Source of the DNA: Bacteroidota bacterium
Lineage (GTDB): Bacteria > Bacteroidota > Bacteroidia > NS11-12g > UBA955
Direction of reading: 5' to 3'
NCBI GenBank assembly: GCA_963169345.1
Contig: CAUJCT010000034.1
Span: forward strand, 1 to 64,000
DNA length: 64,000 nt
Made by a program: the position numbers and the translations under genes. Shown here piece after piece: positions 3,884 through 60,400 of the stretch (the stretch's first letter is position 1; each line of letters opens with the position of its first letter). The notes under the pieces were generated by a model, which searched no databases, was not told the origin of the DNA, and saw nothing but the letters and a program-made list of their open reading frames with translations.

Positions 3884-4282
3884 TTTTAAAATTGAAGCTG
3901 CGAAATTAGTTTATTTTTTGTGATTTTTTGAGACTATGTTTTTTTTAAGATTTTGGATTAGGAGGTTCCAGAAAAATGACGAAACAAGGCAATTACACAA
4001 ATAAATTCACTGTTACTTAGGACTGGTTTTAATTGACTCGATCTTAAAATACAGGTGGAATTATCGAATAGTAAAAAAAAGCGATTGAAGAATTAAATTG
4101 AGAATGTTTTTTGTGAAAGTTGATATTTGGCCAATGAAATAGTACTTTTTCACACTATTCAACCTGGAAGGTTGAATAAGTATACAATTTACATAATAGC
4201 CCAAAAGAAATTTTACTTCAAATCAGAGTCCTCTGGAAAGTTGTTTGCTGACGTAAAATATCAAGGGAAATGAAATTTTCAA
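3884..4282. other. 399-base spacer between engB and the FKBP gene
   Basis: No credible coding region. It contains one copy of the dispersed palindromic repeat (4105-4179) and must hold the FKBP promoter. A possible degraded -7 sequence, TAATTTCG on the minus strand, lies about 20 nt before the FKBP start. Confidence 0.6.
4105..4179 (+). repeat. REP-like palindromic repeat, copy A
   Basis: The copy has the family order: TTTTTTGTGAA, a variable segment, GAAATAGTACTTTTT, CACTATT, then the terminal palindrome TTCAACCTGGAAGGTTGAA (4158-4176). The same order recurs at 8611, 8852, 24209 (inverted), 24344 (inverted) and around the RAYT gene. Confidence 0.85.
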
Positions 4283-8610: not shown

Positions 8611-8686
8611 AGTGTTTTGTGAATGGTCGTTTTTTGATGTTGAAATAGCACTTTTTTGCACTATTCAACCTTCCAGGTTGAATAAG
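8611..8686 (+). repeat. REP-like palindromic repeat, copy B
   Basis: Begins AGTGTTTTGTGAATGGTCG, then TTGAAATAGCAC-T6-GCACTATT and the palindrome TTCAACCTTCCAGGTTGAA (8664-8682). Nearly identical to copy C in the same spacer. Confidence 0.88.
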
Positions 8687-8851: not shown

Positions 8852-8926
8852 AAAGTGTTTTGTGAATGGTCGTTTTTAGGGGTTGAAATAGCACTTTTTT
8901 ACACTATTCAACCTGGAAGGTTGAAT
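8852..8926 (+). repeat. REP-like palindromic repeat, copy C
   Basis: AAAGTGTTTTGTGAATGGTC, then GGGGTTGAAATAGCAC-T6-ACACTATT and the palindrome TTCAACCTGGAAGGTTGAA (8907-8925). The centre reads GGA where copy B has TCC. Confidence 0.88.
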
Positions 8927-9051
8927 TTCTTTTAAAAAATGTTTTATCCAATCAATCAGCTATTTATAAATTAATACTCCAAAATTGCAGCGAATTTTTC
9001 GGCACTTTCGTCTAATTTTATAATACCAGCCGGAAACAAAATAATCAGCTT

Positions 9052-17674: not shown

Positions 17675-17687
17675 GTGGGCAAAAACT

Positions 17688-17769
17688 TTAACCTGTCAGG
17701 TTGAAGTTTTTCGGAATAAAATGCAGTGATACAGTATTTTATAGAAATAAATTGGGACCTGACAGGTTG
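17688..17769. repeat. Pair of short palindromes related to the REP family
   Basis: Two short palindromes, TTAACCTGTCAGGTTGAA (17688-17705) and ACCTGACAGGT (17757-17767), lie 50 bases apart in the fumC/GT9 convergent spacer. They share the AACCT..AGGTT arms of the REP-like repeats but have centres TGTCA and TGACA and lack the rest of the unit. Confidence 0.6.
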
Positions 17770-24168: not shown

Positions 24169-24208
24169 GAGATGCAATATTAAGGAATTTTATTGAACTG
24201 ATTTTTAA

Positions 24209-24276
24209 ATCAACCTTCCAGGTTGAATAGTGCAAAAAAGCACTATTTCAACCCCAAAAAACGACCATTCACAAAA
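24209..24276 (-). repeat. REP-like palindromic repeat, copy E
   Basis: Reverse orientation: palindrome TCAACCTTCCAGGTTGA first, then AATAGTGC-A6-GCACTATT, TTCAACC, and CGACCATTCACAAAA at the end. In this copy the second stem (GGTTGAATAGTGC with GCACTATTTCAACC) is complete except for a one-base bulge. Confidence 0.88.
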
Positions 24277-24343
24277 GGTGTCTTGTAAATCAGCGTATTA
24301 GTTTGGAGTGAAGACATTTCTAAATTATTAAATCAACCTTTAA

Positions 24344-24412
24344 ATCAACCTTCCAGGTTGAATAGTGTAAAAAAGCACTATTTCAACCCCTAAAAACAAC
24401 AATTCACAAAAA
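24344..24412 (-). repeat. REP-like palindromic repeat, copy F
   Basis: Same orientation and order as copy E, 68 bases further on: TCAACCTTCCAGGTTGA, AATAGTGT-A6-GCACTATT, TTCAACCCC and CAATTCACAAAAA. Preceded by an extra AATCAACCTTTAA half-arm. Confidence 0.87.
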
Positions 24413-25858: not shown

Positions 25859-25865
25859 TGTATGT

Positions 25866-25927
25866 CTTCAACCTGCCAGGTTGAATAATAAAAAAAAGTG
25901 CTGTTTCATATTTGAAAATTGACCTTT
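25866..25927 (-). repeat. REP-like repeat, copy G (degenerate)
   Basis: TTCAACCTGCCAGGTTGAA (25867-25885), then AATAATA8GTGCTGTTTCA and a decayed tail. Orientation is opposite to copies I-K on the other side of the RAYT gene. Confidence 0.75.
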
Positions 25928-25999
25928 CAAAGAATCACTTAATTAATTTTGAAGTTGCAACTTTATCTAAGGTTTAAGATTTGTGTTTTTTTATTTTTT

Positions 26000-26020
26000 A
26001 TTCAAACTTCAAGGTTGAAT
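26000..26020. repeat. REP palindrome remnant, copy H
   Basis: TTCAAACTTCAAGGTTGAA, an imperfect version of the family palindrome without the rest of the unit. It lies 145 bases from the RAYT stop codon. Confidence 0.6.
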
Positions 26021-26165
26021 GTACTACGAAATACAATCAAGTTTGAACTTAGCTTCGGTTTAATAAATTTAAGGGTAATTTTATCCATATTGACTTTTTT
26101 CAAAATCAAATGAAAATGAAGTGAAGCTGAAAAATAGAGAGATAATTTCTTTAGTTCAAATACAA

Positions 26166-26846
26166 TTAGAATCTTACACTAAAAGATTTGAAATTACTGG
26201 GTAAATCATCGATATCTATCTCTGGATATTTACCTGTTTGCCGATTAAATAAACTTGTTCTGAAATCTTCAATATCTTTAAAAACTTGAAAGAGGTATTG
26301 AAAGCTCAGAAAATCACTAGATTTATTGATTATATTATTAAGCGAACTATATCGCCAATTTTCAGGTTTTCTTCTATATTTATGTTTGATAGGATTGAGA
26401 TGAATATAGAAATATAATTCTTTCAAATACAATTCATCCTCTACTTTTTTTCTTTTAAAATTTTTTAAAAATAAGGAGCCCTTTCTATCATTTTTAATAT
26501 TGAAATATTTGGCATAAGCGTTGAAACAATTTGAGAAACTTTTAATTATGAATTTCTCAGCATCTCTTTTTACAAGTGGTTTGAGTCTTACATTTGGATG
26601 ACCTCTTTTTCTTTGAGCGTTTTTAATGTTAAGATTGTCAATATGATCGAGGATTTCGCTTTCACTTCGAGTTCTAATCAACAAATGGAAGTGGTTTGGC
26701 ATTAAACAATAGGAGAGTATCTCTGCAACTGGTAAAATATGTACTCTACAATACTTTAAAAATCTTTCATAACTGGAGTCGTCGTCAAATAGGTTGTCTT
26801 TAGCATTTGCATGATTAAAAACATGGTAGATCGAATTAAATTCCAT
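26166..26846 (-). CDS. REP-associated tyrosine transposase-like protein (RAYT, IS200-like fold)
   Basis: 226 residues. It has the Y1 transposase landmarks: YHVFNHANAKDNLF at the start, SYCLMPNHFHLLIR with the HUH motif (H52-F-H54), then GSLFLKNFKRKK (123-134) and LYFYIHLNPIKHKYR (144-158), WRYSSL. These give single-strand nicking and joining in IS200-type enzymes and in RAYTs that act on REP palindromes. Palindromic repeats lie on both sides in inverted orientation (G/H downstream, I/J/K upstream), while no IS ends or target duplication are seen, so a domesticated RAYT is more likely than an insertion sequence. The catalytic Tyr cannot be assigned by eye. The gene is clearly AT-richer than its neighbours. 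Confidence 0.87.
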   Translation of the reverse strand: MEFNSIYHVFNHANAKDNLFDDDSSYERFLKYCRVHILPVAEILSYCLMPNHFHLLIRTRSESEILDHIDNLNIKNAQRKRGHPNVRLKPLVKRDAEKFIIKSFSNCFNAYAKYFNIKNDRKGSLFLKNFKRKKVEDELYLKELYFYIHLNPIKHKYRRKPENWRYSSLNNIINKSSDFLSFQYLFQVFKDIEDFRTSLFNRQTGKYPEIDIDDLPSNFKSFSVRF

Positions 26847-26911
26847 AGCACTATATCAATTTCACAGACTCGAAATTATAACTAAAAAATATAACTAGAT
26901 AACAATTTGTA

Positions 26912-26985
26912 AAGTTTTTTGTGAATGGTTGTTTTTGGGTAATGAAATGGTCGATTTTTTTATTATTCAACCTGCCAGGTTGAAT
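26912..26985 (+). repeat. REP-like palindromic repeat, copy I
   Basis: AAGTTTTTTGTGAATGGTTG, GGGTAATGAAATGGTCGA, T-run, ATTATTC and palindrome TTCAACCTGCCAGGTTGAA (26966-26984). It lies 66 bases upstream of the RAYT start. Confidence 0.85.
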
Positions 26986-26998
26986 TAGGATATTCGCT

Positions 26999-27079
26999 CA
27001 AAAAATCTACTTTATTGAAACTGCAATTTTAGACAAAGAAATAGTACTTTTTTATACTATTCAACCTGGAAGGTTGAAT
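26999..27079 (+). repeat. REP-like repeat, copy J (long form)
   Basis: Starts AAATCTACTTTATTGAAACT and GCAATTTTAGACAA, then GAAATAGTACTTTTTTATAC and palindrome TTCAACCTGGAAGGTTGAA. The first 37 bases are shared only with copy K. Confidence 0.85.
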
Positions 27080-27116
27080 AGTAGATTGCGTATTATTAAA
27101 TACGGAAAATCGATTA

Positions 27117-27194
27117 AAAAAATCTACTTTATTGAAACTGCAATTTTAGACAATGAAATAGTACTTTTTCACACTATTCAACCTGGAAGGTTGA
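27117..27194 (+). repeat. REP-like repeat, copy K (long form)
   Basis: Almost identical to copy J over its whole length (one change in the GACAAA/GACAAT region, two in the T-run), ending TTCAACCTGGAAGGTTGA. J and K are a recent tandem-like duplication with 37 bases between them. Confidence 0.85.
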
Positions 27195-27325
27195 TTTAGT
27201 GTAGCGGTTGATTTAGTTTAACTATTGTTTTTTGTAAAGAAGTTCAATCCAGTTTTGTTATTAATTCATCCCCCTATGTTTAAGCCATCTCTGCCATTCA
27301 TTTAACACACCCCCCTCAACCCAAA

Positions 27326-45204: not shown

Positions 45205-45215
45205 ATGAGAAAATT

Positions 45216-45256
45216 TTAAGTTGTTAAGTTGTTTAGTCGTTAAGTTGTTAAGTCGT
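45216..45256. repeat. Nonamer tandem array next to the NDH-2 promoter
   Basis: About four and a half copies of a GTTAAGTTG/GTTAAGTCG-type unit (TTAAGTTG, TTAAGTTG, TTTAGTCG, TTAAGTTG, TTAAGTCG) ending in GTGGGG. Confidence 0.75.
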
Positions 45257-45481
45257 GGGGCTTTTTTATAAAATTGAAGCTTTCGTTCAATAGGCAGATA
45301 TATGCACGAAGCTCCTTTGTCTTGAAAACTTAAAATTTTTCGAAATCTATCTGCGTTAATCCCTCCGCTTAAGGCGGATAGTTCGCTCAACATTTTGGAA
45401 TCAGATTATATAGATTTCCTGAAACCAAATTTATCATAATGCCATTATTCTGTGCAGTTCTGCGTTAAAAAGAACGAAACT

Positions 45482-45852
45482 GTTAAGTCGTAAAGTCGTT
45501 AAGTCGTGGGGTGATTGGTTGGGATTGAGATTGGTGGAATGGGGAGTTGAGGGCATGTAGAACACAGAACGAAGAAAGAACCCGCTAATCACACAGAAAA
45601 TTTATCCCGTAGGTACGGGATTGACACGGCAATTGGTTTGCTTGCGCAAACGGGAACGCACGGAATGATTAAGATAAGCTAAAAGATATTTACAAGCCCA
45701 AGAACTTAACGTTTGAAGAGCGTCGCGATCAGCCTAAGGCTGACAGGTAACGACGACGCCTACGGAAGCGACAAAAATGATTCAGGACTTTAATTTCAGT
45801 TTGTTTAAAGTCTATCCACAAGCAATACGACTTAACGACTTTACGACTTAAC
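45482..45852. repeat. 26-bp perfect inverted repeat bracketing 319 bases
   Basis: 45482-45507 (GTTAAGTCGTAAAGTCG, continuing TTAAGTCGT) is the exact reverse complement of 45827-45852. Both arms are built from the GTTAAGTCG nonamer. The right arm continues with one more unit (to 45860). Confidence 0.85.
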
Positions 45853-45885
45853 GACTTAACAGCGAAGCCCTCTACCGCGACACAA

Positions 45886-45989
45886 TTCAGCTATTCAGCA
45901 ATTCAGCTATTCAGCAATTCAGCAATTCAGCAATTCAGCAATTCAGCTCTTCAGCTATTCAGCTCTTCAGCTATTCAGCTCTTCAGCCT
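45886..45989. repeat. Octamer tandem array (13 copies) upstream of the receptor gene
   Basis: Thirteen uninterrupted 8-bp units of TTCAGCNN: the last two bases run TA, AA, TA, AA, AA, AA, AA, TC, TA, TC, TA, TC, CT. It ends 26 bp before the -7 box of the 46040 gene. Confidence 0.92.
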
Positions 45990-46015
45990 TTCTTCCTTTC
46001 TTCCTTAAACCTTCT

Positions 46016-49064: not shown

Positions 49065-49315
49065 TGGAAACGGATGTGCGGGTTGAGTCCACGAACTTAG
49101 CGGAGCGATCTCACGACCGGAGGGAGTAACTTAGCGGAGCGATCTCACGACCGGAGGGAGTAACTAACGCGTAGAATTTAAATCATGGCAGCCACGAGCA
49201 GGTTGGATATGCAGCGGCAAAGCCATGATTGAAATTTTGGTTCGTGGTGGCCTTTTTTTGTTTACTTTTTTTTGCCATAAAAAAAAGTAAATGCCAAACC
49301 TGCGGCATGAGCAGG
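49065..49315 (+). repeat. Structured intergenic repeat, copy 1 (with tandem insert)
   Basis: Shares about 179 bases with 51272-51450. Elements in order: GTCCACGAAC, ATCATGGC, GCCACGA, GCCATGAT, TTCGTGGTGGCC followed by T7, a hairpin TTTACTTTTTTTT-GCCAT-AAAAAAAAGTAAA (this arm pair is perfect), and CCTGC-GGCATGA-GCAGG. It differs from copy 2 by a 72-base insert (49097-49168). Confidence 0.88.
49097..49164 (+). repeat. Perfect 34-bp tandem duplication inside copy 1
   Basis: Units 49097-49130 and 49131-49164 are identical (TTAGCGGAGCGATCTCACGA then CCGGAGGGAGTAAC), followed by TAAC. The insert is GC-rich and absent from copy 2. Confidence 0.9.
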
Positions 49316-49342
49316 GAAAAATAAATGTTATAAAACAACTTA

Positions 49343-51016: not shown

Positions 51017-51575
51017 CCCCTGAATTATGAACGCAAAATTCAATTAAATGTTACGTTAAACAAAATAAATTAGTCACTTCGGTTTAACTTTATTTATTTT
51101 GAATAAAAAAAGATAAATAAATTGATTTTGAATTTTTCTGATGTGATTTTGCCTGAATTAATGAAGTCTATATAAATTTATGACTCTTTTATTTCAAAAT
51201 AAAGTTTAAGCGAATGCCGATTGATCTGTTAGTTTAGATATTCCAAACTTAGAAATTTAACAAAACATTAATGGAAGCGGATGTGCGGGTTGAGTCCACG
51301 AACGCGTAGAATTTAAATCATGGCAGCCACGAGCAGGTTGGATATGCAGCGACAAAGCCATGATTGAAATTTTGGTTCGTGGTGGCCTTTTTTTGCTTAC
51401 TTTTATTTGCCATAAAAAAAAGTAAGTGCCACGCCTGCGGCATGAGCAGGCAAATTAGATAATAAGTATTTTTTAAATCATAATTGATGGAATTGGTTTT
51501 CTTCACGCATGTTTCGCAGAAACATTTATAAGTATAAAATTATATGCTCAGTGAAAATTTCATAAATTCGCAGCT
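51017..51575. other. 559-base divergent spacer with structured repeat copy 2
   Basis: Divergent spacer between the vWA-like gene and the peptidase. About 255 bases of AT-rich DNA, then copy 2 (51272-51450), then about 125 bases leading to the peptidase start. No gene seen. Confidence 0.6.
51272..51450 (+). repeat. Structured intergenic repeat, copy 2
   Basis: Same order of arms as copy 1 without the 72-base insert. The last-but-one hairpin reads CTTACTTTTATTT-GCCAT-AAAAAAAAGTAAG: the closing T-A pair of copy 1 is C-G here, a compensatory change, while TATTT against AAAAA adds one mismatch. Confidence 0.88.
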
Positions 51576-54422: not shown

Positions 54423-57400
54423 ATGATTAGAAAATTACTGTTTGTCGTCATTTTAATTTTGATAAATCCTTGTAAATCAGACGCTCAAGGTACTGCAGGG
54501 AAGGATTTTTGGGTGGCATTTATGGCTCAGGACTGGGGTTGTTATTACAACCAGTATTATTATAATAACGATACTGCCGAGTTGTTTTTATCTTCACAAT
54601 ATGCTGCAAATGTTAAAATTAAGGCTCCGGGACAGAACTATCAGACTACAATCACTTTAGTGCCTAATATTACCACTATGGTGCGTTTACCTCGTGAGGT
54701 TGTTTGTCGTTATTCGGATTCCGTAACTACCAATGGGGTAAATATTACTGCCGATACCATCATCAATGTATATGCAGTTAACCGATACTGGTGGTCGAAA
54801 GGCGCTACTGTTGTCATTCCTACTACTTCGATAGTCAACTCACCTGAGTATTTTATCACTACCCAGGCTGATGCCGCCAACTGGAACTGGGGATGGTATT
54901 GCAATGGTAAAAATATTCAGTCACCTGAGTTTACCATAGTTGGTATTGCCGATTCTTCAGTCATAGAAATAGTGCCCACGGGGGCCTCGTCGCGGAACAG
55001 TCCTGCCGGAGTACCTTTCCAGATTACTCTCAAAAAAGGCCAGACTTTCCAGTATATGACAACGGATTTGGACTTAACCGGAAGTATAGTCAGATCAAAA
55101 TACCCACAATCCAAATTTTCTGTTTTTGCCGGAAACAGGCAAGCATATACAAACAGACAAGTCAATAATCAAACCTGTTACAGCAGTTGGGATCACATAT
55201 ACGAACAGATGATGCCAACTGTCAACTGGGGACAGAACTATACAGCCTTACCATTTAAAAATAACACAAGGGGATATACACTTAAAGTCGTAGCAGCCGA
55301 AAATCAAACAAATATTTACATCAATGGATTGTATACAACTCAATTGAGTCAAGGTGAATATTATACCCATCAGGTATACACCGATACATTGATTAGAGTG
55401 ACTTCCAATAACAGAATATCTGTAGCTCAGTTTACTCTGGGAGGTGGTTATAGTGGAGGGGCTTGTCAAAATCACCCTACTAAAAACTGGATAGGTGACC
55501 CGGCCATGGTGATGTTGTTCCCTGATGAGCAATTTGGTACTTCTGCAACCGTTAACACAGTTTCTCAAACTCCATGGTGGTGGTGGTGGAACAATTGGTG
55601 GTGGCAACAGAATTCGCCTGAGCACTACATCAATGTAATGACTAAGTCGGTTGACACAAGCTATTTCTACTGGAATAATAAAAAGTTACCTGTTAATGCC
55701 TGGAAAACAGCCCCGAACTTCACCAATTACCACTTCGCACAAATTCAAATTGACACCGGAAGTCACCATATTCGCAGTACCAAAGGCTTCTTGTCTTATG
55801 TCTATGGATACGGCTGGTTCGAAGGTTATGCTTATGCGGCTGCCGCAAATTTTAAACCTATTCAGAATAATTTTCTAATTGTCAATGCTCAATGTAAGCG
55901 TGATACAGTTAGGTTTCAGGCTATACAAAATGACAGTTTCCGAAACTATTCCTGGGATTTTGGGGATGGCTATACCGATACTGGTGCAAAAGTCAAACAT
56001 AAATACAGAGATACGGGATGGTACGACGTTAAGATGGTGGCACGGCATATTAGAACCAATGCCTATGATACCGTAAAGAAAACGCTGTATGTTGCAGATA
56101 CTAAAATAAAATCGCTCTTTGGTGCCGATACCGCTATTTGTGGTAAGGTAGATATGGTTGTCATTTCAAAAGGTTTTTATATAGATAACGAGTATTCCTG
56201 GAATGACGGACACCCCGTTTATTATCGGGCTATTAAGCAACCCGGCATATACTGGCTGGATGTTAAGGAAAGAAATGGTTGCGTTTTCAGAGATTCATTA
56301 ATCGTTACCAACTCCACTATTCCGTTTGCTAATTTTACTCAATCTCACGAACAGTTCTGTCTGAACAGAAATGTGGATGTGCAATTTAACAATCACTCCA
56401 CTTATAAAGACAGTATCAAACAATTTCGCTGGGATTTAGGCGATACAGTTATCTATACCACCGATACCAATACGACAGTTACCCATAGGTTTAAAAAGGC
56501 TAATATGTTCCCTATCGTCCTTACAGCAGAAACTAAATTTGGCTGCAAGCATGATACATTTATGGTGGTAGATGTTTTGCCTTCTCCTAAATCTAAATTT
56601 ATTTTCACTAAGAAAGATACCTGTTTCAATACAAACGGCATTCAGGTTAAAAACAATACAGTGCCTCTTAAAAACGAACTGAAACGCTACAAGTGGTATT
56701 TCACGGAAGGCTTTGTACAAAGTAACAGCGACCCGGGACCTCGTTCTTATACAGCTACAGGTAAGTATAAAGTGATGCTCATTTACGAGTATAATAATGG
56801 CTGTATAGATACCTCGGTTCAAAATGTGAACATATTGGCTAATCCTAAAGCCGGATTTACTTTCCCTAATGCTACATACTGCTCTTTAGATTCTATTCCT
56901 TTCCAAAGTACAACAACAGGTAATGGCCGTCCTTTTAATTTTACATGGAATTGGGGTGATAATACAACATCTGTTGATTCAAGCGCTAAAAAAGCATTTA
57001 CGAAAATAGGCAATACCTCTGTAAAACTTCAGGTAATCGATAAATTTGGATGCAAAGACAGTATCATTAAATCCTTATTTGTAAATGAAACACCAATAGT
57101 AGATTTTACTATTGATAATGATACGCAATGTTTCAATGGACATAACTTCAATTTTGTCAATAGTACCAAATTTGGAGGTGGTTCTCTCAATTATATATGG
57201 ACTCTTGGAGATGGCAATACGAGTACCGATAGCAATGTTTTGAATAAAACTTATGCTAAAGACTCAAGCTATACAATTAAACTGGCCACTACAACCAGTG
57301 TCGGCTGTAATGCCTCCAGAACGCGTTCTGTTTATCTTGGCGGTTATCCAAATGTTCAATTTGCGGTCAATAAAGATACTCAGTGTTTCAAAAGCAATGC

Positions 57401-60400
57401 CTTCACTTTTACCAATTCTTCTACTATTAAAAGAGGTTCATTGCAGTCTTATGTATGGAGTTTTGGCAACAGCGATACCAGCCACAAAATATCCATTAAC
57501 AATTACAGATACAGCAGTGAAGATACATTTAATGTTCAACTGATAGGCATATCCAATCTAGGTTGTTCAGATACATTCTCTAAGTCGGTTGTGACTTTTG
57601 CTCAGGGAAAATCTGTTTTCAGTACTGCCTCTTCAGCTCAGTGTAAAGACCAGAACGGTTTTGCATTTACCAATTCTTCCAGTATTAAATATGGTAATAT
57701 CACCTATCAATGGAGCTTTGGAGATAATACCAGTTCCGGCGTCCAAAATCCTTTTAAAACTTATAACAGTCCCGGTGTCTATCAGGTTCGTCTCATATCC
57801 ACCAGCAACCACAATTGCAAGGATACTATGACTCTTCCTGTAACCGTTTACGCTAGTCCTGTTGCTTCTTTTAATATCAATAACGACAAACAGTGTTTTA
57901 GAAATAACAGATTTGTTTTCAGCTCTAGTTCCACCATTTCTCAGGGAAGTATTTCCAGATTCGACTGGAACCTGGGTGATAATTCGATAGATTCCGGTTC
58001 TAATATCGTAAAGCAATATTCAATTGAAGATTCTCTTCAGGTCAGGTTAATTGTTACATCCGATAATGGATGTAAAGATACCATTCTTAAAAATGTGGTG
58101 ATTCATCCACAACCAAAAGCTGCCTTTAATGTTAACAATGATATTCAGTGTTTCAAACAACAGAAATTTGTTCTTACCAATAAAACCAGTATTAAAGAAG
58201 GCGCCCTGACTTATAATTGGTCTTTTGGAGACGCAAGCAGCTCTAACGATACCAATATTGTTAAAACTTATCTTAAAGATTCTGTTTACAATGTGCGTTT
58301 AATCAGCAGCAGTTCAAATAACTGCAGAGACACCGTTTATAAAACACTTACATTGAATCCTAGTCCGAATGCCAAATTCATTATCGACAAGGATACACAG
58401 TGTTTCAGGGGTAATGTTTTCAATTTTACCAACCAAAGCAATACTCCAAGGTCTGTCATTACTTCATACGAGTGGAATATGGATGATGGCAAAACATTCT
58501 TTACTCCGGGCGTTTCTAATTACACATTCTTATTGGAGGATACATTTAAGGTTTCACTGGTAGTTACTAATAACAAGGCTTGTACTGATACTCTAATAAA
58601 ACCTGCAGTTACATTTGCCCAACCTGTAGTAAGCTTTACTGTTCCGAATGACAGTCAGTGCTGGCAAAAGAACTACTTTGTTATCAATAACAAAACAAAA
58701 CTTAAGTACGGCACACTTAAGAATTCATGGGACTTTGGAGATAATACCAAATCAACAGAATTTGTACCAAGTACTAAAAAATATCCGAATAAATCTGCTT
58801 CCTATACTATAAAGTACAAAGCTGTGAGTGATCATGGTTGCTCAGATTCGGCCAGTCACCGTATCGTATTGCTCGAACGTCCTGTATCCGACTTCAGTAT
58901 CAACGATTCTATTCAGTGTTTCAGAAGTCACCAGTTCAGTTTTGCCAACACAACCAACTTTAGTGCCATGAGTACTTTAAGTTACTGGTGGGAATATGGC
59001 AATGGTAACAAACACACTGGATTTGCCCCGCAGAACGCTACTTATAGTACACCAGACAAATACAATGTTCAACTGGTGTCCTATTCATCATTGACCAACT
59101 GTTACGATACAGCCATTAAGATAGTCATTCCGGCACCTCATGCCAATGTGAATTTTGCAATGAACAATGACTCTCAGTGTTTCAGATACAACAAGTTCGT
59201 TATGAATAATAGTTCAAATCTGCAGTTTGGAACTATGAAATACAACTGGCAATTTGGAGATAACACATCTGATACTGCCCGCAACCCGATTAAGTCATAT
59301 AAGAATGAGGGTTCGTATACAATTAAACTGGTTATAACAACCAATTACGATTGTGCAGACTCAAGTACAAAAGGCATTGGCTTCTTTGCTACTCCTAAAG
59401 CTGCCTTTGCAATTAATGACAGTTTGCAATGTCTCAATGCACAGTCATTTAATTTTACCGATCAGACACAACTTAACAGAGGTACATATACAGCTTCATG
59501 GGCATTTGATGATAACACAAGCGCCGGTGGATTGACAGTCAGCAATAAGCAATTCAACACCGCTGACTGGCATATAGCACAGTTGTCTGTAATAACCGAT
59601 AAGCTTTGTGTAGACACCGTTCAAAGACGAGTTTACCTTGAAAATAACAAGAATTCTACTATAGTCTTCAACGAGGATGATTCTCAATGTCTGAGAGGCA
59701 ATGTCTTTAGTTTCAAAAATCAAAACAACAATTCTAAAGTAAGCTTCGTAAGCAGTCAGTGGGTTTATGGTGATGGTCAGCAATCCAATCTGGCATTACC
59801 TGCTACAATGAGTTTCGTTAAAGATGGTAAATTCAAAGTAATGCTGGCTACAGTTTCAGCTTTAGGATGTAATGATACTGCATACGCTGATATTATAGTA
59901 CATCCGCACCCTGTTACCCAGTTCAGCGCTGATGTGGTTTGTTATCCTGAGCCTGTTGTATTTAAAAATACTTCTTCTATTAGTTCAGGTACTATCGACC
60001 AGTTTATTTGGGATTTGAGTGATGGAGCACAATACCTCAACCAGTACCCTTCTCATAAGTTTAGTTCTTCCGGTTCGTATAATGTGCGCCTGCAAACTGT
60101 TTCCAATTATGGTTGTCGCGATACTTTATTTATCAATTCAGCTGCAGTTGTAAGGGAAAAACCAAAAGCTTTCTTTACGTTTGATGTTCTGCCGGCTTTA
60201 CAGCAAGACCAAACCAGATTGCAAATGAACAATCAGTCTTCTTCCAGTTCTACGCGATTTAACTGGGATTTCGGCAATGCAAGCAGCAGTACAGACAGAG
60301 ACCCAATAGCGTACTATCAGGATACCGGACGCTGGGGCATTACTTTGGTAGCTTTCTCAAGTGAAGGTTGTTCGGATACATTCACAGTCAATACCGGTCG

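Follow-up and report, generated by a model that had tools for sequence, protein, structure and literature searches.

The window, the 64,000-nucleotide stretch of DNA analysed here, carries a gene for a 226-residue RAYT-like protein of the HUH/Y1 type that is flanked on both sides by short palindromes (Table 1). The protein matches Y1_Tnp of Pfam (8.3e-6) and the NCBIfam model NF047646, "REP-associated tyrosine transposase", the latter with 1.7e-12 and 47 bits, under the model cut-off of 80. All 21 homologs of 21 match the same NCBIfam model, and N51, H52, H54, Y147, N151 and P152 are invariant across their alignment. The window protein has the HUH motif followed downstream by a tyrosine in a YxxxNP motif. 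A search of the PDB with the single 226-residue sequence alone gave no match; a profile built from the 21 homologs has a sole match there, the E. coli TnpA-REP (4er8, 1e-7). An AlphaFold prediction on two sequences reached a pLDDT of 37 and was left unused. The genome to which the window belongs has a second homolog. The two are not copies of an insertion sequence, and the family is present in low number.

Table 1. Coordinates of the RAYT-like genes, the ~70-nt units and the related palindromes. Positions refer to the window unless another contig or locus is named.
Feature	Position	Strand	Remarks
RAYT-like HUH/Y1 protein gene	26166-26846	-	226 aa; HUH H52/H54; catalytic-type Y147 in YIHLNP
Unit, 3' side of gene	25865-25935	-	Palindrome 25867-25885; E 1.2e-10; inverted relative to the 5' set; orthologous to L110 3179-3249
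Degenerate palindrome TTCAAACTTCAAGGTTGAA, 3' side of gene	26001-26019		Without unit body at the scan threshold
Unit nearest the 5' end of the gene	26916-26986	+	70 bp from the start codon; orthologous to L110 4351-4421
Unit, tandem copy, 5' side of gene	27010-27080	+	E 2e-13
Unit, tandem copy, 5' side of gene	27127-27197	+	E 3.6e-13
Unit upstream of saccharopine dehydrogenase-like gene	24207-24277	-	Covariance-model match
Unit in tandem with 24207-24277	24342-24412	-	Orthologous to L110 1651-1721
Dispersed unit	4108-4178	+	Covariance-model match
Dispersed unit	8614-8684	+	Covariance-model match
Dispersed unit, direct repeat of 8614-8684	8857-8927	+	Covariance-model match
Family B doublet AACCTGTCAGGTT / GACCTGACAGGTT	17687-17768		Related but distinct palindrome
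Second RAYT homolog (genome G000, contig C48)	22549-23178 (L138 2549-3178)		35% identical to the window protein

The palindrome at the window gene has the form AACCT-nnn-AGGTT and sits within an ungapped unit of about 70 nt (family A). With up to 3 mismatches, TTCAACCTnnnAGGTTGAA occurs 12 times in the window compared with 0.6 expected, a number reached in 0 of 100 shuffles. Genome-wide, 84 copies are found at up to 2 mismatches and none of the reversed-pattern control; the copies that lie outside unit A belong largely to the related families B and C. Twenty-six copies of the unit align without gaps over about 70 nt as TTTATTGAAA..GCAATTTT....TTGAAATAGTACTTTTTNNACTATTCAACCTnnnAGGTTGAAT. The arms of the palindrome are near-constant among the aligned units and the 3-nt centre varies. 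A covariance model (R2) recovers 38 full units genome-wide at E<=1e-8, in about 22 places. All of the locations examined are intergenic and the units frequently form direct tandems, with spacings of 70, 85, 94-95, 117 and 135. No Rfam family was found at the units, the one match being a chance one (E 0.61). Within the unit, ATAGT..ACTAT had seemed by eye to form a convincing second hairpin, which was rejected after its covariation proved not to exceed that of shuffled alignments. The canonical REP foot GT[AG]G is absent: looked for on both strands up to 6 nt away, it accompanies 0 of 43 palindromes of family A, 0 of 6 at the L110 locus and 0 of 19 of family D.

The sets that flank the gene are inverted with respect to each other. 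The 3' unit points to the left and the three 5' units to the right, so that the palindromes lie outermost; AACCTnnnAGGTT is repeated on both sides of the gene, as happens in 0 of 100 shuffles. The preliminary description had placed the gene, with its H52-F-H54 motif, between inverted sets of palindromes, and this arrangement was borne out, as were the proposed unit size of 65-75 bases, the dispersal of the cognate palindromes, the low copy number of the gene and the assignment to a Bacteroidetes lineage, the relatives being Bacteroidota. It had counted two palindromes on the 3' side, of which one belongs to a full unit; the other is degenerate, with no unit body detected at the scan threshold. 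Away from the gene, the window contains five further units (at 4108, 8614, 8857, 24207 and 24342), and the palindrome at 17687 is of a related but different family.

Other repeats were observed beside the units and elsewhere in the window. A minisatellite of about 8 bp (GACTTAAC/AACTTAAC) lies to the left of the unit arrays L123, L125 and L126, and at several arrays it passes directly into a truncated first unit. Similar minisatellites occupy 45214-45511 of the window, and an 8-bp tandem array of the AATTCAGC / TATTCAGC type, with about a dozen copies, lies at 45867-46010. Further on are a perfect 34-bp tandem duplication (49094-49161), a 157-bp repeat whose two copies are 95% identical and about 2.1 kb apart (49163-49319 and 51298-51454) and repeats spaced by about 255 bp within an apparent coding region, where they would represent repeated protein domains (57091-59719).

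The second homolog of the genome is bracketed by inverted palindromes of another sequence, ACCCT-nnn-AGGGT. Three copies of ACCCTGCTAGGGT lie on its 3' side at a spacing of 166 bp, and ACCCTAGCAGGGT lies on its 5' side. The palindrome of this pair, ACCCTnnnAGGGT, has 53 copies genome-wide compared with 1 for the control; palindromes of this type were also seen in tandem at about 166-172 bp. The closest homolog from the same genus (genome G015, 44% identity) is accompanied by about 11 double palindromes of GACCTGGAAGGTGTCG and its inverse, which have the core ACCTGGAAGGT in common. Two of these flank the gene, one per side, and none was seen as such in the other congeners. The third version of the palindrome in this genus reads GACCT-gga-AGGTG.

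A scan of 84,980 species, one genome per species and possibly without the window's own genome, detected the unit in just one other contig, JAEUTR010000169.1 (L110), labelled as a Bacteroidia MAG. Its RAYT gene is orthologous to that of the window (74% amino acid identity, 79% DNA identity at the locus), and the saccharopine dehydrogenase-like neighbour is common to both (83% amino acid identity). L110 has units at three orthologous sites (Table 1). The inverted bracketing is present at the window gene, at its L110 ortholog and at the second homolog on C48. Since one unit per site is common to the window and L110 while the additional tandem copies are not, so that the copy number differs at each site, the bracketing is old and the tandem copy number changes. 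The genes next to the dispersed units have no synteny in the sister MAG G117, in which the unit matches are confined to a 4.5-kb contig. Identity over selected flank genes in G117 is mostly 40-78% at the amino acid level, compared with 74-83% at the shared locus. Because G117 is far more distant elsewhere than at this locus, the 4.5-kb contig may be misbinned, and the confinement of matches to it is not taken to mean that G117 lacks dispersed copies; the higher identity in L110 relative to most other G117 matches suggests either transfer or misbinning. A predicted 328-aa transposase-like ORF adjoins the shared locus in L110 (416-1402).

Among the relatives, the window palindrome is specific to its carrier: at up to 1 mismatch it occurs 57 times in the carrier genome and 0-1 times in each of 116 relatives; sixteen congeners have 0-1 copies each. 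Equal abundance in relatives without a close homolog, named beforehand as evidence against a link to the gene, was therefore not found, nor were multiple copies of the gene, its single other homolog being the one at 35% identity. More distant homologs are associated with double palindromes of the form AACYYTnnnARRGTT-nnn-inverse, which lie beside the gene, within the gene in its reading frame, and at other genomic sites. When phylogeny is ignored and gene-proximal copies are counted, the double palindrome is present in 13 of 25 genomes with a homolog and in 5 of 92 without (Fisher, 4e-7); leaving out the genomes with gene-proximal copies alone gives 6 of 25 and 3 of 92 (p 0.003, phylogeny again ignored). 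In-gene palindromes and a variable segment were seen in the relatives G071, G073, G082, G098, G112 and G114. The window protein has the variable segment, and there is no palindrome inside its gene. In the homologs L028, L030 and L021 the in-frame palindromes encode short peptides, for example LEGL, so that the REP is translated.

The gene and its palindromes very probably constitute a REP/RAYT (REPtron) system, whose cognate hairpin is carried on a non-autonomous unit of about 70 nt. The observations that support this interpretation are the protein family, the conserved HUH motif and tyrosine, the inverted bracketing, the intergenic tandem copies, the co-occurrence of gene and unit, and the second gene/palindrome pair. 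Inverted REPs around the gene together with copies throughout the genome are the defining arrangement of a RAYT (Nunvar 2010, PMC2817692), and for both genes of this genome the palindrome found at the gene is also abundant and extragenic genome-wide.

A reading of the palindromes as ordinary regulatory elements or terminators of intergenic regions, spread by recombination, with the gene merely lying among them, is very unlikely. REPs can affect transcript ends, the units are intergenic and one palindrome is terminator-like by its score. Terminator-like sites are, however, at the level of chance (2, compared with 1.8 in shuffles), on which ground the terminator reading of the units was rejected, and the T-run of the unit precedes the hairpin with none after it. 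By inspection, the neighbouring genes show no preference of orientation (convergent, tandem and divergent at roughly 1:2:1). Two homologs in one genome, each bracketed by a different palindrome, and the recurrence of the pairing in L110 and G015 also speak against such elements.

An insertion sequence of the IS200/IS605 type, with palindromes that are remnants of its ends, would account for the Y1_Tnp domain and for the presence of palindromes on both sides of the gene. This explanation is very unlikely given that the gene is single, without the multiple near-identical copies of an insertion sequence, and that its place beside the neighbour gene is conserved in a second organism, whose DNA at the locus is 79% identical. 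The ends of IS200/IS605 elements are directly oriented, whereas the palindromes on the two sides of the window gene are inverted. This family is not known to make target duplications.

Two further families of palindromes are related to unit A. Family B consists of CAACCTGTCAGGTTG palindromes, often paired 65-99 bp apart, at L159-L170, L175, L177 and 17687-17768 of the window. Family C consists of TCAACCTGGCAGGTTAAAT...TTCGTTAAAATAATTAAGTCAACCTGCCAGGTTGA doublets about 67-69 bp apart, at L172-L174, L176, L178 and L130 1742-1823. No gene of their own was found for families B and C in the window's genome. The left body of family B, of about 45 nt, is that of unit A although the palindromes differ; the copies of B were retrieved by their similarity to the A model, and the shared body is thus partly selected for. 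This common left body suggests that the body of the unit also matters. That the palindromes belong to some other, unseen system, such as the site of a nucleoid or segregation protein, and serve the RAYT just as landing sites, would fit the two families without a gene and the common left body with unlike palindromes, but hardly deserves credence in view of the species-level co-occurrence of unit A with the gene and the orthology of the gene-proximal units between the window and L110.

In the REP/RAYT system proposed here, the window gene is predicted to encode a domesticated, single-copy Y1/HUH endonuclease of single-stranded DNA. Its cognate substrate would be the hairpin of (A)ACCT-nnn-AGGT(T) at one end of the ~70-nt non-autonomous unit. 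The palindrome would fold out in single-stranded, lagging-strand DNA, and the enzyme would cleave the folded palindrome and so copy or move the units, which may seed new sites and expand the tandem arrays. Each RAYT would prefer its own arm sequence. We infer cleavage, strand transfer and copying by the window enzyme from its family, in which TnpA-REP acts on REPs in single-stranded form in vitro (PMC8266576). A tentative and rather doubtful extension is that the whole unit, and not the palindrome alone, is mobile as a miniature single-strand element, conserved at its left end (CTTTATTGAAA) and palindromic at its right, which the RAYT copies head-to-tail; one left body with differing palindromes, as in families A and B, would then imply modular recognition, in which several palindrome families may use one enzyme.

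The system resembles the gammaproteobacterial RAYT/REP systems (E. coli TnpA-REP 4er8; Stenotrophomonas, Pseudomonas; PMC2817692, PMC3116915) in its low-copy HUH/Tyr protein, in the inverted REPs that flank the gene, in the many extragenic copies of one palindrome and in the presence of several gene/REP pairs in a genome. It differs from them in that the window palindromes lack the GT[AG]G head at their foot, in that the palindrome, with 8-bp arms and a 3-nt centre, is short and embedded in a conserved unit of ~70 nt, and in that the protein has a phenylalanine (F126) at the position of a conserved tryptophan. REPINs are typically inverted doublets, whereas the dispersed units of the window's genome are direct tandems.

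Two subclasses described by Quentin 2018 (PMC6006769) are also close: 2.4, in which RAYT genes have REPs inside, and 2.6, which comprises Bacteroidetes RAYTs whose palindromes do not carry GT[AG]G. The former (2.4, Bertels group 4) occurs in Bacteroidetes and has, like the window lineage, a variable insertion that follows the HUH strand and precedes the next helix; the relatives of the window gene likewise have in-frame, in-gene REPs and double palindromes. The published double-foot REPs of this subclass bear GT[AG]G / C[TC]AC, which here accompany 1 of 18 palindromes in the relatives and none in the window's genome (0 of 43 and 0 of 19); moreover, the WQ motif is not conserved and no palindrome lies inside the window gene. 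With subclass 2.6 (Bertels group 5) the window lineage shares its occurrence in Bacteroidetes, palindromes that are atypical and weaker, lack GT[AG]G and recur elsewhere in the genome, a Y motif of the YIHxNP type and a Trp/Gln region that is not conserved. The published 2.6 insertion of 21 aa, located after helix C and ahead of strand 4, is not evident, and the insertion of the window lineage follows the HUH strand instead. Compared by the published descriptions, the window lineage combines features of the two subclasses.

Because both the missing GT[AG]G and the in-gene REPs have already been described in RAYT subclasses (Quentin 2018), the system is a variant of RAYT/REP and not a new kind. 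The preliminary description had expected a new recognition code, which is supported in part: the literature searched gave no description of the exact arm sequences or of the 70-nt composite unit. A wholly new code is not supported, since Bacteroidetes palindromes without GT[AG]G and RAYT genes with internal REPs had been reported (PMC6006769). Judged by the literature searched, three things appear to be new: the particular arm code, the arrangement of the 70-nt composite unit in direct tandems and the occurrence, within a single Bacteroidota genome, of two RAYT paralogs with matched palindromes.

How RAYTs recognize REPs and how REPs multiply are still open questions in the field. The two paralogous enzymes and their two simple palindromes without GT[AG]G, together with the third from the same genus, form a natural set for swapping specificities, and the composite 70-nt unit with its tandem arrays offers a testable picture of how copies are formed.
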